From Hydrogenimonas cancrithermarum (GTDB lineage: Bacteria > Campylobacterota > Campylobacteria > Campylobacterales > Hydrogenimonadaceae), in contig NZ_AP027370.1 in NCBI RefSeq assembly GCF_030296055.1, positions 2,237,001-2,301,000 of the forward strand: a stretch of 64,000 bases of DNA. Reading direction: 5' to 3'. Below the pieces are notes generated by a model. That model was not told the origin of the DNA. It saw only the letters and a list, made by a program, of their open reading frames with translations, and made no database searches. Each line of letters starts with the position of its first letter. The stretch's first letter is position 1. A program made the position numbers and the translations under genes. This document shows positions 30,131 to 39,247 of the stretch, piece by piece.

Positions 30131-30802
30131 TTGAAAAAAGCGGTAGTGATTCTCAGCGGGGGAATGGATTCGACGACGGCAGCCTATATCGCCAAGTCGG
30201 AGGGGTATGAAATCGTTGCGCTCCATTTTGATTATCGGCAGCGGACTCAGCGTCGCGAGCATGAAGCGTTCGATGCCATCTGCGATGCCCTTGCCGTTGC
30301 GAACCGATATGTGATCGATCTGCCGTTTTTTGAGCAGATCGGTGCTTCGGCACTGACGGACGCCAGTATCGATGTTCCTACCGGAGGGATCGAAGAGGGT
30401 GTTCCCGTGACCTATGTGCCGTTTAGAAACGGGATTTTTTTGAGCATCGCGGCCGCAGTGGCGGAAAAAGAGAGAGCCGAAGCGCTCTATATCGGTGTCG
30501 TCGAGGAGGACAGCAGCGGCTATCCGGACTGTCGGGAGGATTTCATCGCCGCGATGCAAAAAGCCATCAATCTCGGGACCAAAGAGGAGACGAACCTCGT
30601 CATCAAAACGCCTCTGGTCCATCTGAAAAAAGAGGATATCGTCAAAACGGCTCTAGAATACGGTGTGCCGCTGGAGCTGACCTGGAGCTGTTACCAGAAC
30701 GAGGATGAGGCGTGCGGTGTCTGCGACAGCTGCCGCTTGCGTCTCAAAGGATTTGAAAAAGCCGGTATCGAAGATCCGATTGCCTACAAGATACGGCCGT
30801 GA
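30131..30802 (+). CDS. queC: 7-cyano-7-deazaguanine synthase QueC
   Basis: Converts carboxydeazaguanine to preQ0 in queuosine synthesis. 223 residues: PP-loop LSGGMDSTT at residues 8-16, and the four zinc cysteines in the C-terminal part ([15 protein letters not shown]). TTG start with AAGG six nt ahead. The frame runs 375 nt further upstream, antisense to ybeY, and that part is not real. Confidence 0.93.
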
Positions 30803-31138
30803 GTGAAAATTCAGGACCCTTTGGTCTTTTGCGACGCGATAATTGAGATATTGCCAAAAACTTCTCTTCGTTGTTTGAAGGGAAGCTCCATTCTTGCAAG
30901 TTGTATGTACCACCTCTCTCCTCTTTCGGTAAATCATTGAAACCGGATCATCTCTTTCTGTTTGGTTATTATAAAGGTTCTTAATGTAAAATGGTGAATG
31001 TTCGTGAGAAATTCATATAAACAGTACAGTGATGGGATGGAAGAAAAGGCCGTTATATCCGTTTCGATGTCGATGTGAATGGATTTTCTATCGGCAAAAA
31101 GGAATTGTAAAGTAGAAAGTAGAAGGAGAAAACGATTG
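30803..31138. other. Spacer between queC and VOC lipoprotein gene
   Basis: About 335 nt without a convincing gene. Base composition falls to A/T-rich from here. Two -10-like boxes for the following gene are visible, TATAAA at 30970-30975 and TAAAAT at 30987-30992. A longer frame from 31079 would add 20 Arg/Lys-rich residues to the lipoprotein, but lacks a start-site signal. No hairpin terminator for queC is evident. Confidence 0.5.
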
Positions 31139-32023
31139 ATGCGTGGAAAGATCGGAAAATATATAGGGATGCTCGTTGTTGCATTTTCACTTTCAGGGTG
31201 TTTGCAACCCTCCCCACCTTCGTCTTCGGAGGGGGAAAAGGTCCTGCCTGCAATCACAAAAGAGGATACGCATAAACATTACCAGGGTAAGTTCGTATGG
31301 CATGACCTATTGACCAATGACGTGGCATCGGCACAGACTTTCTATGCCGGGCTCTTTGGATGGTCGTTTCAAAAGCGAGACAATTATGTGTTGGTTATGA
31401 ATCACGGTGAGCGTATCGGTGGTATGGTAAATATCGCATCGCCACGCGGTGAAAAAGTCACGGCTATATGGTTGCCATCCATCTCCGTTGCAGATGTCGA
31501 CGAAGCGGCCGAGTATCTGGTTCGAAAGAAAGGAAAAGTGCTGAAAGGCCCTATGGATATGAAAAAAAGAGGCCGAGGAGCACTCGTAAGAGATCCGTAT
31601 GGGGCGTTTGTTGTATTGCTACATTCAAAAAGCGGAGACCCTTTGGATACGACACCGAAAATAGGTGACTGGCTCTGGAATGAGCTTTGGAGCAATTCCC
31701 CATCACAAAGCTACAGCTTCTATCGTGCGTTGGGTGGGTATGACAAGGAAGCCGACACCGAAAAGGATTATCTGATTCTCAAACAGAAAGGTGTGTGGCG
31801 TGCCGGTATCAGATATGTCGAAGAGGATGCGTTCGACGTTCAATGGGTACCCGTCGTTCGTGTCTCCGACCCCGAGGCCATCGTCGCCAAAACTCCCGAG
31901 CTGGGTGGCCGTGTTCTCATGAAGCCGCAAGCTACGTTAATGAATGGCGATGTGGCTCTGATTGCCGATCCATCGGGTGCATTATTGATCGTACAGCGAT
32001 GGAAAGAGGGGGATATGGAATGA
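31139..32023 (+). CDS. VOC (glyoxalase/bleomycin-resistance fold) lipoprotein
   Basis: 294 residues: signal with lipobox LSGC (Cys ~21), then two VOC modules (about 50-160 and 175-290). Each begins with a W..L.t.D...a..FY..lfGW-type strand: VWHDLLTNDVASAQTFYAGLFGW in the first, WNELWSNSPSQSYSFYRALGGY in the second. Paired-module VOC proteins are usually cytosolic; the lipobox would put this one in the periplasm or on a membrane. Metal ligands are not clear. Start ATG has AAGGAG upstream. It overlaps the next small lipoprotein gene by 4 nt. Confidence 0.82.
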   Translation: MRGKIGKYIGMLVVAFSLSGCLQPSPPSSSEGEKVLPAITKEDTHKHYQGKFVWHDLLTNDVASAQTFYAGLFGWSFQKRDNYVLVMNHGERIGGMVNIASPRGEKVTAIWLPSISVADVDEAAEYLVRKKGKVLKGPMDMKKRGRGALVRDPYGAFVVLLHSKSGDPLDTTPKIGDWLWNELWSNSPSQSYSFYRALGGYDKEADTEKDYLILKQKGVWRAGIRYVEEDAFDVQWVPVVRVSDPEAIVAKTPELGGRVLMKPQATLMNGDVALIADPSGALLIVQRWKEGDME

Positions 32024-32316
32024 AGTGGAATATCGAAAGCATTGTCCGCATCGCCATCGTATTGGGAGGATTGGGATTTCTATCGGGGTGTACGGGGCAC
32101 CATTATTCGTCGGTAGGGTATGGTGTGTATGGTGGATATGGCAGCTATGGGGGCAGTGGATGGTATTATCGCCCGCCCTATTACCGCCCGCCGAATAGGC
32201 CGGGAAGGCCCAAGCCGGAGCATCCTATTACGAAACCGTCGATACGCCCATCCATAGGACGCCCACCTGCACGGCCGACCATGAGACCTTCGGGTGGCCC
32301 GGCGAGGATGCGATAA
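32020..32316 (+). CDS. Small Gly/Tyr/Pro/Arg-rich lipoprotein
   Basis: 98 residues. A hydrophobic signal ends in a lipobox (LSGC, Cys ~25). The mature part begins Gly/Tyr/Ser-rich (GYGVYGGYGSYGG) and turns into Pro/Arg-rich repeats (RPPYYRPPNRP and similar), with no recognisable domain. Such low-complexity lipoproteins may bind wall or surface polymers, but no function can be assigned. ATGA overlap with the VOC lipoprotein suggests the two are made together. Confidence 0.7.
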   Translation: MKWNIESIVRIAIVLGGLGFLSGCTGHHYSSVGYGVYGGYGSYGGSGWYYRPPYYRPPNRPGRPKPEHPITKPSIRPSIGRPPARPTMRPSGGPARMR

Positions 32317-32462
32317 GGTTGACGAATTCTTGGAGTCAGGGTTTCCATAAAATTCCAAAGTGGATCGCGGCTTCCGCAGCCCGGTGACTCAACCCTCCTT
32401 GGCCATGATGTGTATTTTTCGTCATATAAATTGTTCCATTTTGCCGAATTTCATTGATTGGA

Positions 32463-32468
32463 TATAAT
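32463..32468 (+). promoter_or_regulatory. Putative -10 box of the accessory operon
   Basis: Perfect TATAAT, 78 nt before the flavoprotein ATG, with a weak -35 candidate TTGTTC at 32441-32446 (16-nt spacing). The spacer from 32317 holds no gene; it has a small GCGG/CCGC hairpin near 32371. Confidence 0.55.
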
Positions 32469-32546
32469 GGGTATTCAACGAAAACCGATTACCGAAGAGG
32501 TAGAGAGAGTCGTCAACGTAGAGTTTCCATAAATGAAAGGATTGAA

Positions 32547-33914
32547 ATGGAGAGAATGATATGTGATGTTTTGATCATTGGCGGAGGACCTGCAGGAGGG
32601 GTATGTGCGGTGACTGCAAAAATGAACTATCCGGAGAAGAAGATACTGGTTGTTCGTGAGATGGAGGTGCAGATGGTTCCCTGTGCCATTCCATATGTTT
32701 TTGGACCGACACTCGGAAGTAGTGAAAAAAATATCGCCTCTTGTGGCAAAGCGGATGAAATGGGTATCGAAAACCTCGTTGCCAAAGTCGAAGAAGTCGA
32801 CATCGATGGAAAGATTGCCTATACCCCTACCCATCGGATAGATTTCGACAAAGTGGTTTTTGCAACGGGTTCGATACCGTTCGTACATGCATCGTTGGAA
32901 CCTTCGCTCGCACTCGATGGAGTTTTTACCGTACCCAAAAACAAAGAACTGATAGACAAGGCGAAAAAATATTGTGACTCCGTTACCGATATTGTGGTTG
33001 TCGGTACGGGTTTTATCGGTGTCGAGATGGCGATGGAACTTAGGGAGAGTGGAAAAAACGTAACGCTTCTGGGCGGGAGCCCTCATATATTCAAGGGTAT
33101 TTTCGACCGGGAGATAGCTGCACAGGCAGAGGAGATACTCTCTTCTCAAGGCATCACTTTTATCGGCGGAGATCGTGTTGCCGCCATTCTCGATCGAAAC
33201 GGAGACAATATAGTCGACGCCGTACAGCTTGAAAGTGGTACGATCATCGATACGCAAGCGGTGATATTGGCGACGGGGTACAAACCCAATACGGAACTGG
33301 CGGAAAAAGCCGGCCTGCCTTTGGGAGATTATGGCGGAGTCGTTGTCGATGAGTATATGAGAACGAAGAATGGCGACGTTTTCGCCATTGGAGATTGCAG
33401 TGCAAGAAGAGGGTTTATTACGAGAGAACCTTCCAAAGTGATGCTGGCATCCACTTCCGCTGCAGAGGGACGGGTGGCAGGGAGCTCTCTGTACAGTCTG
33501 AAATATATGAAAAAATTCAACGGAACCATCGCTATTTTTTCAACCATCGTTGGCGATACGGTATTCGCTTCTGCCGGGATCACAGAAGAAGATGCATTGC
33601 GAAACGGTGGGGAGATCGTCGTGGGCAGCTTCAATGGCGTGAATAGACACCCTTCGACCATACCGGGGGCTCAAAGTCAATTCGTTAAACTCGTCGCGAT
33701 GCGGCATGGAGGGCAGATTATAGGAGGACAGGTTGTCGGTGGAAACGAAGCAGGTGAAATGATCAATATCATCGGCCTCATGATAGAGAACAACATGACC
33801 ATTTACCAGGTCATGTCCATTCAGGTGGCGACCCATCCGATGTTGACTGCTGCACCGACGAGCTATCCTATCGTGATGGCGGCGAGTATGACGGCGAATG
33901 CTATGGAAAAATAG
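32547..33914 (+). CDS. FAD/NAD(P) pyridine-nucleotide-disulfide oxidoreductase (CoA-disulfide reductase/NADH oxidase-like)
   Basis: 455-residue flavoprotein. It has an FAD site GGGPAGG at residues 12-18, an NAD(P) site VVGTGFIGVEMAMEL near 150, a second FAD segment FAIGDCSA near 290 and a C-terminal dimerisation domain (about 330-455). A Cys at position 46, in VPCAIPYVFG, sits where CoA-disulfide reductases and NADH oxidases keep their redox-active Cys. The reaction is therefore likely disulfide, persulfide or oxygen reduction with NAD(P)H; the substrate is unknown. The ATG has AAAGG 6 nt ahead; the longer frame from 32454 begins inside the promoter. First gene of the accessory operon. Confidence 0.85.
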   Translation: MERMICDVLIIGGGPAGGVCAVTAKMNYPEKKILVVREMEVQMVPCAIPYVFGPTLGSSEKNIASCGKADEMGIENLVAKVEEVDIDGKIAYTPTHRIDFDKVVFATGSIPFVHASLEPSLALDGVFTVPKNKELIDKAKKYCDSVTDIVVVGTGFIGVEMAMELRESGKNVTLLGGSPHIFKGIFDREIAAQAEEILSSQGITFIGGDRVAAILDRNGDNIVDAVQLESGTIIDTQAVILATGYKPNTELAEKAGLPLGDYGGVVVDEYMRTKNGDVFAIGDCSARRGFITREPSKVMLASTSAAEGRVAGSSLYSLKYMKKFNGTIAIFSTIVGDTVFASAGITEEDALRNGGEIVVGSFNGVNRHPSTIPGAQSQFVKLVAMRHGGQIIGGQVVGGNEAGEMINIIGLMIENNMTIYQVMSIQVATHPMLTAAPTSYPIVMAASMTANAMEK

Positions 33915-33925
33915 AGGAGAGATTG

Positions 33926-35092
33926 ATGAAAAGAAAAAAAGTACTTATTACTGGTGTAGGTGGCGTAGGCGTTTTTGCTGCACATTTGATCGCGAAGTTG
34001 CCGGAGGTGGAACTCTATCTTGGACGGCGCGGGTATGACTTCATCAAGCACAAAGCGAATGGGATCATGGATTCCGCATACTACATGAATCCGGATAATC
34101 CGTATCCGACCGTTGTTCCTGTGAAAATGGACCTGATGGATCTCGAGAAAACCACCGAACAGCTTGAGGAGATACAGCCGGATGTCATCTTGCATTTGGC
34201 GACACTGCTGGCTGCTCAAAAAATACGTGAAGGTTTGCCGGTTGACGTTGCAAAAAAGATTTACGATGCCAATCCGGTCGGGACCGGACTGAGGCCATGG
34301 GCACCTGGACATACGGTCTTGCTGCTCAATTTGATGAAAGCGGTCAAAGCGAGTGGAATAGAGACGAAAGTCGTCAATGGGTCGGGATGTGATTTTTTGC
34401 ATCTTTCATTCAGCAAATTTGGACTCGAACCCACATGCGGGTTGGGTGATTTCGCTCTGTTGGAACCGGGGATCAAGCGTATTCTGGCGCGAACCAAAGG
34501 CCTCGACCAGACAAAACTTCAACTACATATGGTAGGGCACCATTCATTGGTGATGCCCATCATGTTTTTTGGTGACTCCCAGGGGATCCCATACAAGATC
34601 AGGACTATTTATGATGGAGAAGATATCAGTGACAGTATCGACTATGAAAAAGATGTCTTCCCCTATATGCCGGAAGAGTCTTCCTGGCCTCCCAATGCTT
34701 CGTCACACGATCAGGAGCAGACGGCGGCCCATGCAGCGAGAATCGTCAAAGCGATTCTGTATGATACGAACGAGATCTTGAACGTACCAGCGCCTGAGGG
34801 GCAGCCGGGATGTTATCCCACGAGAGTCGGAGCCTTCGGAGCCAAAATAGTGGTTTCGGAAGGAGAAACCCTCGAGGAATTGGTCGAGATCAATGTCGAT
34901 GGAAATATCGCTGAAGGTTTCAAGGAGATTCGAGATGACGGAACGATGGTTGCAACAGACAGAACGGTAGAGCTCGTCGAGGAGATATTCGGTATCGATT
35001 GGAAATATAAAAGTTTTCATCCTGAAGAAGCTTTCGAGGCTTACAAAGAGATTCAGGAAGCCTATGATAATTTCGCTAAACAATACAAATGA
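33926..35092 (+). CDS. Divergent lactate/malate-dehydrogenase-like Rossmann protein, function unknown
   Basis: 388 residues. A dinucleotide-binding loop GVGGVGVFAAHL is at the N-terminus and a PDVILHLATLLA strand near residue 90. GTGLRPW follows, then NGSGCDFLHLS near 150, CGLGDFALLEPGIKR near 170 and HMVGHHSLVMP near 205. The order recalls the LDH/MDH fold (GxGxxG, NP.D, GLG..LDsaR, GeHGd..vP), but the catalytic residues do not line up clearly and the C-terminal ~120 residues are unlike it. A short-chain or saccharopine-type reductase is an alternative. GAGGAG 6 nt before the ATG; 11 nt after the flavoprotein and 4-nt overlap with the exporter. Confidence 0.6.
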   Translation: MKRKKVLITGVGGVGVFAAHLIAKLPEVELYLGRRGYDFIKHKANGIMDSAYYMNPDNPYPTVVPVKMDLMDLEKTTEQLEEIQPDVILHLATLLAAQKIREGLPVDVAKKIYDANPVGTGLRPWAPGHTVLLLNLMKAVKASGIETKVVNGSGCDFLHLSFSKFGLEPTCGLGDFALLEPGIKRILARTKGLDQTKLQLHMVGHHSLVMPIMFFGDSQGIPYKIRTIYDGEDISDSIDYEKDVFPYMPEESSWPPNASSHDQEQTAAHAARIVKAILYDTNEILNVPAPEGQPGCYPTRVGAFGAKIVVSEGETLEELVEINVDGNIAEGFKEIRDDGTMVATDRTVELVEEIFGIDWKYKSFHPEEAFEAYKEIQEAYDNFAKQYK

Positions 35093-36690
35093 AACTACAA
35101 AAACTCTTTGAGAACAAATGGTACACCTTGGGTGTACTGTTGATGGCTCAGATTTTGATCATATTCGACAATACCGGACTCTCCATCTCCACTGCAAATA
35201 TCATTTCGGAACTCAATACGACGCTTGACCAAGTTCAATTTTCGTTGGCGATGTATCCCATGGTAGCCGGTTCTTTGATGATCGCTGGTGGTATGCTGGG
35301 GCTGGTGATCGGATGGAAACGCCTGTTCCAGATCGGAGTAGGGCTTTATGTTCTGGCCGAACTCATCGTCGCAACTGCCGGCAGTATCGAAATTCTGATT
35401 TTCGGAGGCAGGGTTTTGGCGGGTTTGGCGGGAAGTATGATCATCCCTGCCGTTTTGGGCATGATCCCGGGCCTCTATTATGGAAAAGATAGGGTGCAAG
35501 CCTTTTCGTTGGTTGCGGTTGCGGTTGCGATAGGTTCCGCGATCAGTCCTTTTGTTTTTGCGATCATTATCGATAATTATAGTTTCAAACTGGGTTTCGG
35601 ATTCATGATGGTCATGTTTGGTTTAATGTTCACTTTCAGTTTTTTTATCAAAGACATTCCACTGCCCGACAAAAAGATCGTATTCGATTTTGTAGGCATG
35701 CTTTTGATGAGTACTTCGGTTTTTCTTTTTATGATCGGCTTGATGAAGATCGGTGAATGGGGTATTTGGTCTGCGCATAACGACGAAACCGCCATCATGG
35801 GTTTGAGCCCTTCACCGATTCTGGTATTGCTTGGATTTTTCATTTTTTATATTTTTTTGAAATGGGAGTCGAAAGTCGACAAAAAAGGCGGCGATTGCCT
35901 CTTGCCTTTGGAGTTTATCGAAAGTGCAGAAGTTCGTTCGGGATTGGGGTTTACTGCAGTTGTCTTCATGGCTTTCGTGACCATTACATTCATAGTTATA
36001 TCCTATATCCAGATTGTCGGAGAGTTTTCGGCTTTGAAAACGGCCGGGATGCTACTCTTTTTTTCGATAGGAATGATCGGAGGGTCTTTGGGGGCACCCG
36101 CATGGCTCTCTCGAATGTCGGCGAAAAGCGTCAATACACTTGGGTTCATAGCACTTATAGTTGGTCTTGTATCGATGTATTTCGGCTTGGAATACGCGGG
36201 AATCAATACTCTCATGCCGATAGGAATGTCGATCTTCGGGGTAGGGTTGGGAATCATTTCTGCCCAGATGTCTTTAATGGTAACCGAATCCCTTTCGCAT
36301 CAAGGTGCCATGCAGTCGGGAGGCGTTCAAGCGACTTTTAGAGGGATTGGCGAAGCGCTCGGAGTGGCTGTGCTCGGCACGACACTCATGCTCTCCACCA
36401 CACTTTCAATCAAAAATGCCGGCCGCTCCAACAACGAAATTTCCAAAAAGACAGCGGATTTGATCGTAGAAGTCAATACCATCCCGTTCAGTGCGGATAA
36501 AACATTTAAAATAATGTTAGATAAACACATCGAAGACGAGCGGGACAAAAAAGAGTTGATGCTGATAAATACCGAAGCGAGAAAATATGCCGCCGAGAAT
36601 GCGCTTGTCATCATGATCTTTCTGGTCTCGTTCTTCTATATGTTGCTTCAAAGAGGTGTTCGTGACGAATCGATTTTGAATAGTTCATAG
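35089..36690 (+). CDS. MFS drug/metabolite exporter, DHA2 (EmrB/QacA) type
   Basis: 533-residue inner-membrane protein with about fourteen predicted helices, the DHA2 plan. Motif-C-like GSAISPFVFAI is near residue 145, and an N-terminal pattern near 18-50 (IFDNTGLSISTANIISEL) matches the family's D-x-T-iVn-vALP. DHA2 members export drugs, toxic metabolites or polyamine-like compounds with proton antiport. Periplasmic adaptor (EmrA) and TolC genes are absent; a barrel-like protein follows instead. ATGA overlap with the preceding gene implies a shared transcript. Confidence 0.85.
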   Translation: MKLQKLFENKWYTLGVLLMAQILIIFDNTGLSISTANIISELNTTLDQVQFSLAMYPMVAGSLMIAGGMLGLVIGWKRLFQIGVGLYVLAELIVATAGSIEILIFGGRVLAGLAGSMIIPAVLGMIPGLYYGKDRVQAFSLVAVAVAIGSAISPFVFAIIIDNYSFKLGFGFMMVMFGLMFTFSFFIKDIPLPDKKIVFDFVGMLLMSTSVFLFMIGLMKIGEWGIWSAHNDETAIMGLSPSPILVLLGFFIFYIFLKWESKVDKKGGDCLLPLEFIESAEVRSGLGFTAVVFMAFVTITFIVISYIQIVGEFSALKTAGMLLFFSIGMIGGSLGAPAWLSRMSAKSVNTLGFIALIVGLVSMYFGLEYAGINTLMPIGMSIFGVGLGIISAQMSLMVTESLSHQGAMQSGGVQATFRGIGEALGVAVLGTTLMLSTTLSIKNAGRSNNEISKKTADLIVEVNTIPFSADKTFKIMLDKHIEDERDKKELMLINTEARKYAAENALVIMIFLVSFFYMLLQRGVRDESILNSS

Positions 36691-36791
36691 AACTCCATTT
36701 TCAATCTAGTGGGGTGAAGAAAAGCGGAACTTAAACAGAATTAACTAAAGGAGCTAATATTAATCAGCAAAATTTATTACAGACAATTTTT

Positions 36792-37676
36792 ATGGCTACC
36801 ATGTTTCTGTCAACACAGCTCATCTGGGCAATGGATGTGGGAACGATCGCCGCGGCATATACTTCTGAAGTGAAAGATGAAATCGAAGAAGAGGCCCTGG
36901 AGGAGGATAAAAGTGCCGAAGAACTTGCCAAACAATTGGCAAATCCCATCGCAGCTTTGATATCCTTGCCATTTCAGCTCAATTATGACAGAGGATACTA
37001 TCATTCAACTGGCGACGATAGCAATAAATGGACATTGAACATCCAGCCGGTCGTACCTATATCGCTCAACGAAGATTGGAATTTGATTTCCAGAACGATC
37101 GTTCCGATCGTTCGAATGGATAATACACCTCCAGGAAACGGCATTGAGAGTGGAGTAGGCGATATCGTTCAAAGCCTTTTTCTCTCCCCGGCTCTCCCGA
37201 CCGAGAATGGATGGGTATGGGGAATCGGCCCGGTATTTCTGATTCCTACGGACAGCGACAATATTTCCGCCAGAAAGTGGGGAGTGGGTCCCACAGCCGT
37301 AGCGCTCAAACAAGATGGCCCTTTGACCTACGGAGTGCTGGCGAACCATCTGTGGTCAATCGCCGGAGAGGATATCGAAGACGACAATGGGAATGTCTTG
37401 AACGATATAAGCCAGACATTCGTACAGCCGTTTTTCTCCTATACGACATCGGAAGCGATCACCGTGACGACAATGATGGAGACCACCTATAACTGGAATG
37501 CCACGAATGGGAATGAATGGAGTGTGCCGATTTTCCTGATGGTCTCGAAAGTCGATAAAATAGGCGGACAGCTCGTCAATTATGCGGGAGGTGTCAAGTA
37601 TTATGCCCAAAGCCCGGATGGAGGGGCCGAAGGATGGGGAGCACGGATCGTCTTTACATTTTTGTTTCCCAAATAA
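36792..37676 (+). CDS. Outer-membrane beta-barrel-like protein (MetA-pathway/transporter-like)
   Basis: 294 residues from the first ATG. After a signal-like stretch and an acidic segment (KDEIEEEALEEDKSAEE) it consists of alternating amphipathic strands ending in Phe (ARIVFTFLFPK), typical of an outer-membrane barrel. It resembles the 'MetA pathway of phenol degradation' family (segments such as GVGDIVQSLFLSP, GIGPVFLIPT, WGVGPTAVALKQ). The ATG has no ribosome site. An in-frame AUU 33 nt upstream (36759) has AAAGGAG at 5-nt spacing and would give a fuller signal peptide, so translation may start there. It lies about 100 nt after the exporter and is likely part of the same module. Confidence 0.72.
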   Translation: MATMFLSTQLIWAMDVGTIAAAYTSEVKDEIEEEALEEDKSAEELAKQLANPIAALISLPFQLNYDRGYYHSTGDDSNKWTLNIQPVVPISLNEDWNLISRTIVPIVRMDNTPPGNGIESGVGDIVQSLFLSPALPTENGWVWGIGPVFLIPTDSDNISARKWGVGPTAVALKQDGPLTYGVLANHLWSIAGEDIEDDNGNVLNDISQTFVQPFFSYTTSEAITVTTMMETTYNWNATNGNEWSVPIFLMVSKVDKIGGQLVNYAGGVKYYAQSPDGGAEGWGARIVFTFLFPK

Positions 37677-37719
37677 AATACATACTTAATTAAGTTAAGG
37701 ATCAAGCGTAAAAAGCGGC

Positions 37720-38814
37720 TCAACGGATGGAAAAATACTTCGCTTCACTGGTGTCGGTCCACGGTTTGATGCGGCGGTAGTAACTCTCCATCGAAGCGTA
37801 GACGTGTTTGAAATCTTCGCTTCGGGCACTCTGTTCTTCGACCACTTCCATCACCGCTTTTTTCGCCGCTGCGATAATATCGGAGGGAAAATCGCGTATC
37901 TGTACGCCGAGCTCCTTCAGTTTTTTGAGGGCTTTGGCATTTTCGTCCATAAATTCGTGGTACATTTCGTTTGTCATCGCTTCGGAAGCGTAGCGAAGGA
38001 TCGCTTTGTGTTCGTCGCTGAGGCTTTCGAAACGTGCCTTGTTGAACGTGAGTTCGAGGATGGAGCCCGGTTCGTGCCATCCCGTGTAGTAGTTGGGGGC
38101 GACTTTGTAGAAACCCATGCGGATGTCGAGTGCCGGCCCGACCCACTCGGTCGCGTCGATCGTGCCGCGTTCGAGCGAGGTGTAGATTTCGCCGGCAGGG
38201 AGCAGGATGGGGTTGACGCCGAGCTTCGCCATCACTTCGCCCCCAAGCCCGGGAATGCGCATCTTCAATCCCTTCAGGTCGGCGAGCGATTCGATCGGTT
38301 TTCTGAACCAGCCGCCCATCTGTACACCGGTATTGCCGCCCATGAAGGGGTAGAGGTTGAATTTGGCGTAGAGTTCGCGCCATAGGTCGTAACCGCCGCC
38401 GTAGTTCATCCAGCAACTCAGTTCACTGGCCACCATACCGAGCGGCAGGCCGCTGAAGAGTGCGAATGCCGGGTTTTTCCCTTTCCAGTAGTATGGCCCC
38501 GAATGGAAACCGTCGATCTGTCCGCTGCTTGTCGCGTCGAAAACGGCGAGTGCAGGAACGAGAATGTTTTTTGGATAGACCTTGATCTCCAGACTCCCGC
38601 CACTCATCGCCTTGACCTTCTCGGCGAAGCGGTCGACACCCGTCCCCATAATCGGGAAGTTCGCCGGCCAGCTGGTGGCGATTTTGAGTTTCACTCTGCG
38701 CTGCCGATTGACGCTGAAACTCTTTTTCCCTTCGACCTGTTCTCTAGTACACCCCGAAAAAGTGGCGGCCGCACCCACAACCGCCGCCGATTTCAGAAAA
38801 TCTCTTCGTTTCAT
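37720..38814 (-). CDS. TRAP transporter solute-binding protein (DctP family), orphan
   Basis: Periplasmic substrate-binding protein of 364 residues. The N-terminus has a twin-arginine motif (RRDFLKS) and then a lipobox (FSGC), so it should be exported folded and lipid-anchored. DctP-family segments follow: KIATSWPANFP, DGFHSGPYYW, LKGLKMRIPGLGGEVMAKLGVNPILLPAGEIYTSLERGTIDATEW. The conserved Arg of this motif (in KMRIPG) normally binds a carboxylate. No DctQ or DctM membrane genes are in the window. The preceding spacer holds tandem 100-bp repeats. Confidence 0.9.
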   Translation of the reverse strand: MKRRDFLKSAAVVGAAATFSGCTREQVEGKKSFSVNRQRRVKLKIATSWPANFPIMGTGVDRFAEKVKAMSGGSLEIKVYPKNILVPALAVFDATSSGQIDGFHSGPYYWKGKNPAFALFSGLPLGMVASELSCWMNYGGGYDLWRELYAKFNLYPFMGGNTGVQMGGWFRKPIESLADLKGLKMRIPGLGGEVMAKLGVNPILLPAGEIYTSLERGTIDATEWVGPALDIRMGFYKVAPNYYTGWHEPGSILELTFNKARFESLSDEHKAILRYASEAMTNEMYHEFMDENAKALKKLKELGVQIRDFPSDIIAAAKKAVMEVVEEQSARSEDFKHVYASMESYYRRIKPWTDTSEAKYFSIR

Positions 38815-38869: not shown

Positions 38870-38971
38870 CCGACCGAAGCAAAAATTATCGATAAGAGTG
38901 ATTGAAGGAGAAACATAGAACGGAGTGAGCCGAAGCGATACGACAAGCAGCCGCACCAGTGCGGCGGGCCT

Positions 38972-39247
38972 GCTGCCGAAGCGAACCCAGTGTTAACGTA
39001 GGGCGAGTGGCTTTGCCGGTCGACTGTGTTTGCCGAAGGCAAGATCTGAAGCGGTACAACCGCGTGGGCCCGCTGCCGAAGCGAACCCAGTGTTAACGTA
39101 GGGCGAGTGGCTTTGCCGGTCGACTGTGTTTGCCGAAGGCAAGATCTGAAGCGGTACAACCGCGTGGGCCCGCTGCCGAAGCGAACCCAGTGTTAACGTA
39201 GGGCGAGTGGCTTTGCCGGTCGACTGTGTTTGCCGAAGGCAAGATCT
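38972..39247. repeat. Exact 100-bp tandem repeat, about 2.8 copies
   Basis: Two full 100-bp units (38972-39071 and 39072-39171) and a 76-bp partial third unit (39172-39247), identical by eye. The unit contains a TTGCC/GGCAA hairpin, a GCGGT/ACCGC hairpin and the palindrome GTTAAC. The left flank (about 38948-38970) is a divergent half-unit in which the second hairpin is kept with different bases (CCGCAC/GTGCGG). The period is not a multiple of three, so it does not encode a repeat protein. It ends exactly at the stop codon of the calcium exchanger and sits upstream of the TRAP gene. Confidence 0.95.

Follow-up and report, generated by a model that had tools for sequence, protein, structure and literature searches.

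The 64,000-nt stretch of Hydrogenimonas cancrithermarum contig NZ_AP027370.1 analysed here (the window) carries, within a horizontally acquired block, four consecutive plus-strand genes encoding a flavoprotein, a Rossmann-fold protein, a major facilitator superfamily (MFS) transporter and an outer-membrane barrel-type protein. The second and third of these, a predicted enzyme of the lactate dehydrogenase/malate dehydrogenase (LDH/MDH) fold and a transporter of a rare MFS subfamily, are found close together again in Vibrio sp. D404a, and we propose, with about even confidence, that they are the core of a module dedicated to one small molecule. The block and its four main genes are as follows:

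30803..37719, no strand: inserted block (genomic island) between queC (plus strand, ends at 30802) and dctP (minus strand, 37720-38814).
32547-33914, plus strand: flavoprotein of the FAD/NAD(P)H disulfide-reductase family with a single redox cysteine, Cys46 (VPCAIPY), assigned by PF07992 (180 bits) and PF02852 (64 bits).
33926-35092, plus strand: predicted LDH/MDH-fold NAD(P)-binding oxidoreductase (AlphaFold, Foldseek, profile match and clade).
35089-36690, plus strand: MFS transporter of the 14-transmembrane (14-TM), DHA2-like type and of a rare subfamily (PF07690, QacA alignment and subfamily alignment).
36792-37676, plus strand: outer-membrane barrel-type 'transporter' family protein (homology), with a possible ATT start at 36759.

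An earlier reading of this DNA (the original prediction) had described these genes as a redox/export module, and its coordinates agree with ours throughout: an 11-nt gap separates the flavoprotein and Rossmann genes, the Rossmann and MFS genes overlap by 4 nt (ATGA), and 101 nt lie between the MFS and barrel genes. The block, however, starts earlier than was then seen. By blastn, homology to ten congeneric genomes ends at ~30793, the end of queC, and restarts at 37719/37720, the end of dctP, and the insert is therefore ~6.9 kb long and includes a VOC/glyoxalase lipoprotein gene and a small lipoprotein gene ahead of the flavoprotein gene. It is absent from all ten congeners, in which queC and dctP lie 31 bp to ~3 kb apart (on two separate contigs in G008) and none of the block genes was found at this site. 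The content of the site differs between genomes (an LPP20-like gene, an aminotransferase gene, a Cache-GGDEF gene or almost nothing), which marks it as variable within the genus. The G+C content at third codon positions (GC3) of the five long block genes (31079 to 37676) is 0.48-0.53, the lowest among the long open reading frames of the window, versus at least 0.546 for all the others (median 0.62), which bears out the A/T-richer codon use noted earlier. We read the block as horizontally acquired, with foreign codon use; its ends carry no integration marks in the form of a tRNA, a transposase or flanking repeats.

The Rossmann protein matches no Pfam family, Ldh_1_N and Ldh_1_C included, and scores 17 bits against PRK06223 (cutoff 283). 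Its AlphaFold model, built on a 61-sequence alignment, reached a predicted local distance difference test score (pLDDT) of 93.1 (37 without an alignment), and the top 50 Foldseek matches of this model were all LDH/MDH (E ~1e-10, TM-scores 0.59/0.69). In addition, the family profile aligns to LDH across both halves of the protein, so that profile and fold comparison together uphold the LDH/MDH-like call of the original prediction. Like the LDH/MDH superfamily, the protein combines the predicted fold with a glycine-rich dinucleotide loop (GVGGVG) and a histidine at the catalytic position: H206 aligns with the histidine of GEHGDS in 3wsv, the LDH catalytic histidine position, and 58 of the 61 family members carry a histidine there. 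It departs from the superfamily in its low identity (14-18%), in being ~70 residues longer, in not keeping, as aligned, Asp168/Arg171 (LDH numbering; the pair for the 2-hydroxy-acid carboxylate) and in a Cys/His/Asp set of its own.

None of 59 close relatives carries the gene, nor does any of 297 other class genomes. Remote relatives (mostly 22-30% identity) come from rhizobia, Pseudomonas, Acidobacteriota, Bathyarchaeota and others. Remote relatives lie in what appear to be clusters for amino-acid catabolism that include ABC importers. By far the best matches are two proteins of Vibrio sp. D404a (59% and 51%; next best 30%), which form with the window protein a clade with 100/100 support on a long stem. 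The three proteins share C155, D175, H269, N286 and C296 plus several insertions, at positions where 54-58 of the 61 members carry Pro, Asn, Ser, His, Gly or gaps. Such clade-specific residues at near-invariant positions would be the pattern expected from a change of substrate. The GTDB scan for the enzyme relied on two short patterns, neither of which fits one of the Vibrio copies, and may therefore have missed clade members; a single-sequence GTDB scan with the Rossmann protein returned nothing. Among viral contigs, a four-row alignment gave no match and a three-row alignment only two weak, fragmentary ones, and a seven-row alignment was too divergent for searching. On rhizobial plasmids (L002, L003 and L004), the genes of remote enzyme relatives belong to a conserved set that also encodes an alanine-racemase-like protein, a DMT transporter, a TIGR01459 HAD hydrolase and a C45/AAT hydrolase.

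The transporter gene encodes a member of the MFS fold family (PF07690, 78 bits, cutoff 33.4) whose best match among known families is the DHA2/EmrB-type exporters, with QacA at E 7e-15 and with EfpA. It resembles the DHA2 transporters QacA, EmrB and EfpA in its 14-TM-type length and in D27, Y56 and R108, which align with the proton-relay residues D34, Y63 and R114 of QacA (PMC10425836), suggesting that it may be proton-coupled. It is unlike them in several respects. The score against the EmrB subfamily model TIGR00711 (82.2 bits) lies below the cutoff of 230.2. Two acids of the QacA drug-binding vestibule are replaced, D323 by M329 and E407, which is essential for all QacA substrates (PMC10425836), by A415. 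The antiporter motif C of TM5, G-x8-G-x3-G-P-x2-G-G (PMC10604125), is not kept, reading IGSAISPFVFA in the window protein (S-P-F-V-F-A versus G-P-x-x-G-G). Across the six-member subfamily motif C is variable, with an intact GPVAGG only in G740, and Q414 and R418 are invariant. At E <1e-50, the subfamily was found in 2 of 200 genomes of the class (its own included) and in 2 of 321 gammaproteobacterial genomes (Vibrio sp. D404a included by design).

Elsewhere, members of this transporter subfamily precede hydrolase genes, in G223 (L150:8966-11520 and L151:8684-12038) and on a Plesiomonas plasmid (L139:9968-13371). The MFS gene lies directly 5' of a CBAH-family gene in one place (G223) and of Amidohydro_3 genes in two (G223 and the Plesiomonas plasmid). 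A bile-acid module, suggested by the CBAH and BASS genes next to the G223 transporter gene, was not adopted, as the BASS protein also matches PanS and the window has no such genes.

In Vibrio sp. D404a (L054, NZ_JAHGAJ010000001.1), the enzyme and MFS genes are 2.7 kb apart. The Vibrio transporter is 35% identical to that of the window and stands far above the next match in the same genome (E 3.8e-96 versus 5.7e-6). Because enzyme and transporter are each rare and yet lie so close together, their pairing is unlikely to be due to chance, the probability of such close placement being ~1-2 per thousand (given a genome of 5.3 Mb with two copies of the enzyme gene; computed after the result had been seen). 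The two clusters are alike in that the Vibrio one holds two copies of the enzyme clade, a transporter of the same subfamily and an outer-membrane barrel. They differ in that the Vibrio cluster has two or three SDR genes and a LysR regulator, uses both strands and lacks a flavoprotein orthologue, the Vibrio genome offering only matches of ~30%; its barrel is of the FadL type, and no barrel related to that of the window was found there.

The Vibrio cluster (L054/L152, G328:C1) borders genes for a class-III aminotransferase, a GntR/MocR-type regulator, a TauE/SafE protein and a YdfG-like SDR, which resemble the taurine-to-isethionate set Toa-IsfD-IsfE (PMC6616044). As the window has none of these bordering genes, the link to isethionate or taurine was set aside and is kept only as a lead.

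The original prediction had proposed a gene-neighbourhood search of the Rossmann protein and had held that its four genes would not be a new system if they were not found together in other genomes. All four occur together in none of the 80 Rossmann-family loci of the GTDB scan and in none of ~300 genomes of the class, 298 of Vibrionaceae and 369 of Gammaproteobacteria. The four-gene set is hence not supported as a recurrent unit and fails the very test that had been laid down for it; what survives is the two-gene core of enzyme and transporter. The accompanying remark that no named system was known with this combination is upheld: we found no named pathway for it, and literature searches gave no published description of the gene set.

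The flavoprotein and the barrel are outside the recurring unit, being absent from the Vibrio cluster and present alone elsewhere. A homologue of the flavoprotein (57%) stands alone in G008 and a paralogue (48%) lies beside pyruvate kinase in its own genome; the sequences nearest to it come from genomes of its class and are uncharacterised homologues. The best matches of the flavoprotein in the PDB are 5l1n, 8a56 and 4fx9. It resembles the CoA-disulfide reductase/NADH oxidase/CoA-persulfide reductase group in its full-length domain match and in its single active-site cysteine, Cys46 aligning with the PCGIPY cysteine of 5l1n, and differs from this group in scoring far below the cutoff of the CoA-disulfide reductase model TIGR03385 (204.8 bits, cutoff 578.8) and in lacking a rhodanese domain.

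The barrel protein, which matches no Pfam family, is 59% identical to 'transporter' proteins of Sinorhizobium pSymA, and the genes of these homologues on rhizobial plasmids neighbour adenylate cyclase and hydrolase genes. A strong ribosome-binding site (AAGGAG, within 36750-36792) lies just 5' of the in-frame ATT at 36759 and not of the ATG at 36792, suggesting that translation may start at this rare codon. Homologues in G040 (66%) and G312 (44%) lie beside CBAH genes. The CBAH-family linear amide hydrolases encoded there (L158:5463-9790 and L159:3886-5768, respectively) have signal-peptide-like N-termini, and the G040 run also contains an Amidohydro_3 gene with a leader resembling those of twin-arginine translocation (TAT).

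The remaining features at the locus are:

31079-32023, plus strand: two-domain VOC/glyoxalase protein with the lipobox LSGC (PF00903 and PF18029; GC3 0.484).
~32095-32316, plus strand: small Gly/Tyr/Pro/Arg-rich lipoprotein reading frame with FLSGC.
32441-32468, plus strand: promoter-like site TTGCCG-16-TATAAT (consensus scan).
37720-38814, minus strand: dctP, TAT-exported TRAP protein (PF03480), a conserved flanking gene outside the module.

The VOC/glyoxalase protein scores 79 bits against the KbpA model (cutoff 250); a lipobox on this fold is unusual and points to an apparently exported location. No Pfam match was found for the small lipoprotein. The promoter-like site contains the TATAAT box that had been taken as the set's own promoter; because such sites are no commoner in the region than in shuffled sequence (11 found versus 10.6 expected by chance), the box is no evidence of one. 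The dctP gene is 76-88% identical in nine congeners and intact in them; in the tenth (G010:C72:36240-37330, L051) it is in two pieces, as overlapping reading frames that suggest a frameshift. Beyond it, upstream of a divergent calcium-antiporter-like gene, a 100-bp unit is repeated in tandem 2.8 times (99% match) at 38966-39247, and G007 has one similar unit at the matching position.

In the reading that we prefer, the core would pair a soluble dehydrogenase that uses NAD(P) with a proton-coupled permease of the MFS, the two being made by coupled translation. The permease would carry either the substrate or the product through the inner membrane; the dehydrogenase would interconvert a hydroxy and a keto (or an amino and an imino) form at the retained catalytic histidine. 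To these the barrel could add a route through the outer membrane, and the flavoprotein, of CoA-disulfide/NADH-oxidase type, could serve as a redox partner for NADH re-oxidation or thiol/disulfide chemistry. Uptake with catabolism is slightly favoured over efflux, because the transporter has lost motif C and the vestibule acids, relatives of the barrel adjoin secreted CBAH hydrolases, the Vibrio barrel is of the FadL type and remote relatives of the enzyme occur in apparently catabolic settings. More tentatively, the enzyme clade of the window and Vibrio could be a new LDH-fold type whose own active-site set (H206, C155, D175, H269 and C296) acts on a substrate class beyond those of known LDH/MDH, served by a dedicated anion-accepting transporter with R418 in place of the QacA acids. 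Enzyme and permease would then make up a new mobile two-gene metabolic unit common to different phyla.

Several observations weigh against the preferred reading. Only two independent occurrences of the enzyme-transporter pair are known. Dehydrogenase activity is itself only a prediction, and the positions aligned to Asp168/Arg171 are L179/G182, which makes activity on 2-hydroxy acids doubtful, although E180 lies one place from L179 and the alignment may be shifted by one position. As to direction, homology of the transporter favours efflux, its solved relatives QacA and EfpA being exporters. Flavoprotein and barrel may simply be cargo with no link to the core. Relatives of the barrel also neighbour adenylate cyclases, an arylsulfatase and other genes, so that barrel context says little about the substrate.

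The homology of the transporter and its retained proton-relay residues also speak for an export or detoxification operon, in which a toxic or secreted compound would be altered by the enzymes in the cytosol, pumped into the periplasm by the MFS protein and let out through the barrel; the VOC/glyoxalase lipoprotein, of a type often tied to resistance, fits as well. We nevertheless consider this unlikely, given the loss of motif C and of both vestibule acids, the absence from the block of any EmrA-type adaptor or TolC and the pairing of barrel relatives with hydrolases rather than exporters, findings that also leave the export across both membranes originally proposed unsupported. An arrangement of the EmrAB-TolC kind was rejected: MFS and outer-membrane protein genes do lie near each other, but no reading frame between 30803 and 37719 encodes a membrane-fusion adaptor or a TolC-type channel, and the barrel is not TolC-like and has hydrolase-associated relatives. 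Slightly less probable again is that there is no module and the queC-dctP site gathered unrelated genes in succession. The variability of the site, the solitary homologues of flavoprotein and barrel and the want of any genome with all four genes speak for this, but the 4-nt overlap and 11-nt gap joining the first three genes, their similar GC3 and the renewed association of two rare genes in Vibrio do not. Highly improbable, in our estimate, is a looser network acting on N-acylated or amide compounds (bile-salt-like amides, acyl-homoserine lactones and similar), in which transporter and barrel would move acids or amines freed by Ntn- or amidohydrolases. It would draw together the CBAH neighbours of the transporter (G223) and barrel (G040 and G312), the Amidohydro_3 neighbours of both (G223 and the Plesiomonas plasmid; G040) and the C45/AAT Ntn hydrolases beside the remote rhizobial enzyme family, penicillin V acylases belonging among the CBAH enzymes (PMC8066178). 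However, neither the block nor the Vibrio cluster has such a hydrolase, CBAH genes of other genomes lack the transporter and barrel, and the neighbours of barrel relatives are varied; we keep these adjacencies as a lead, a loose parallel.

The enzyme belongs to a widespread family, extending from rhizobia and Pseudomonas to Acidobacteriota and Bathyarchaeota, for which we found neither a Pfam model nor a function on record. Its rare transporter partner and the changes that its clade shows at near-invariant positions suggest a single substrate that can be defined; once that is identified, a large branch of the textbook LDH/MDH fold would have a function.

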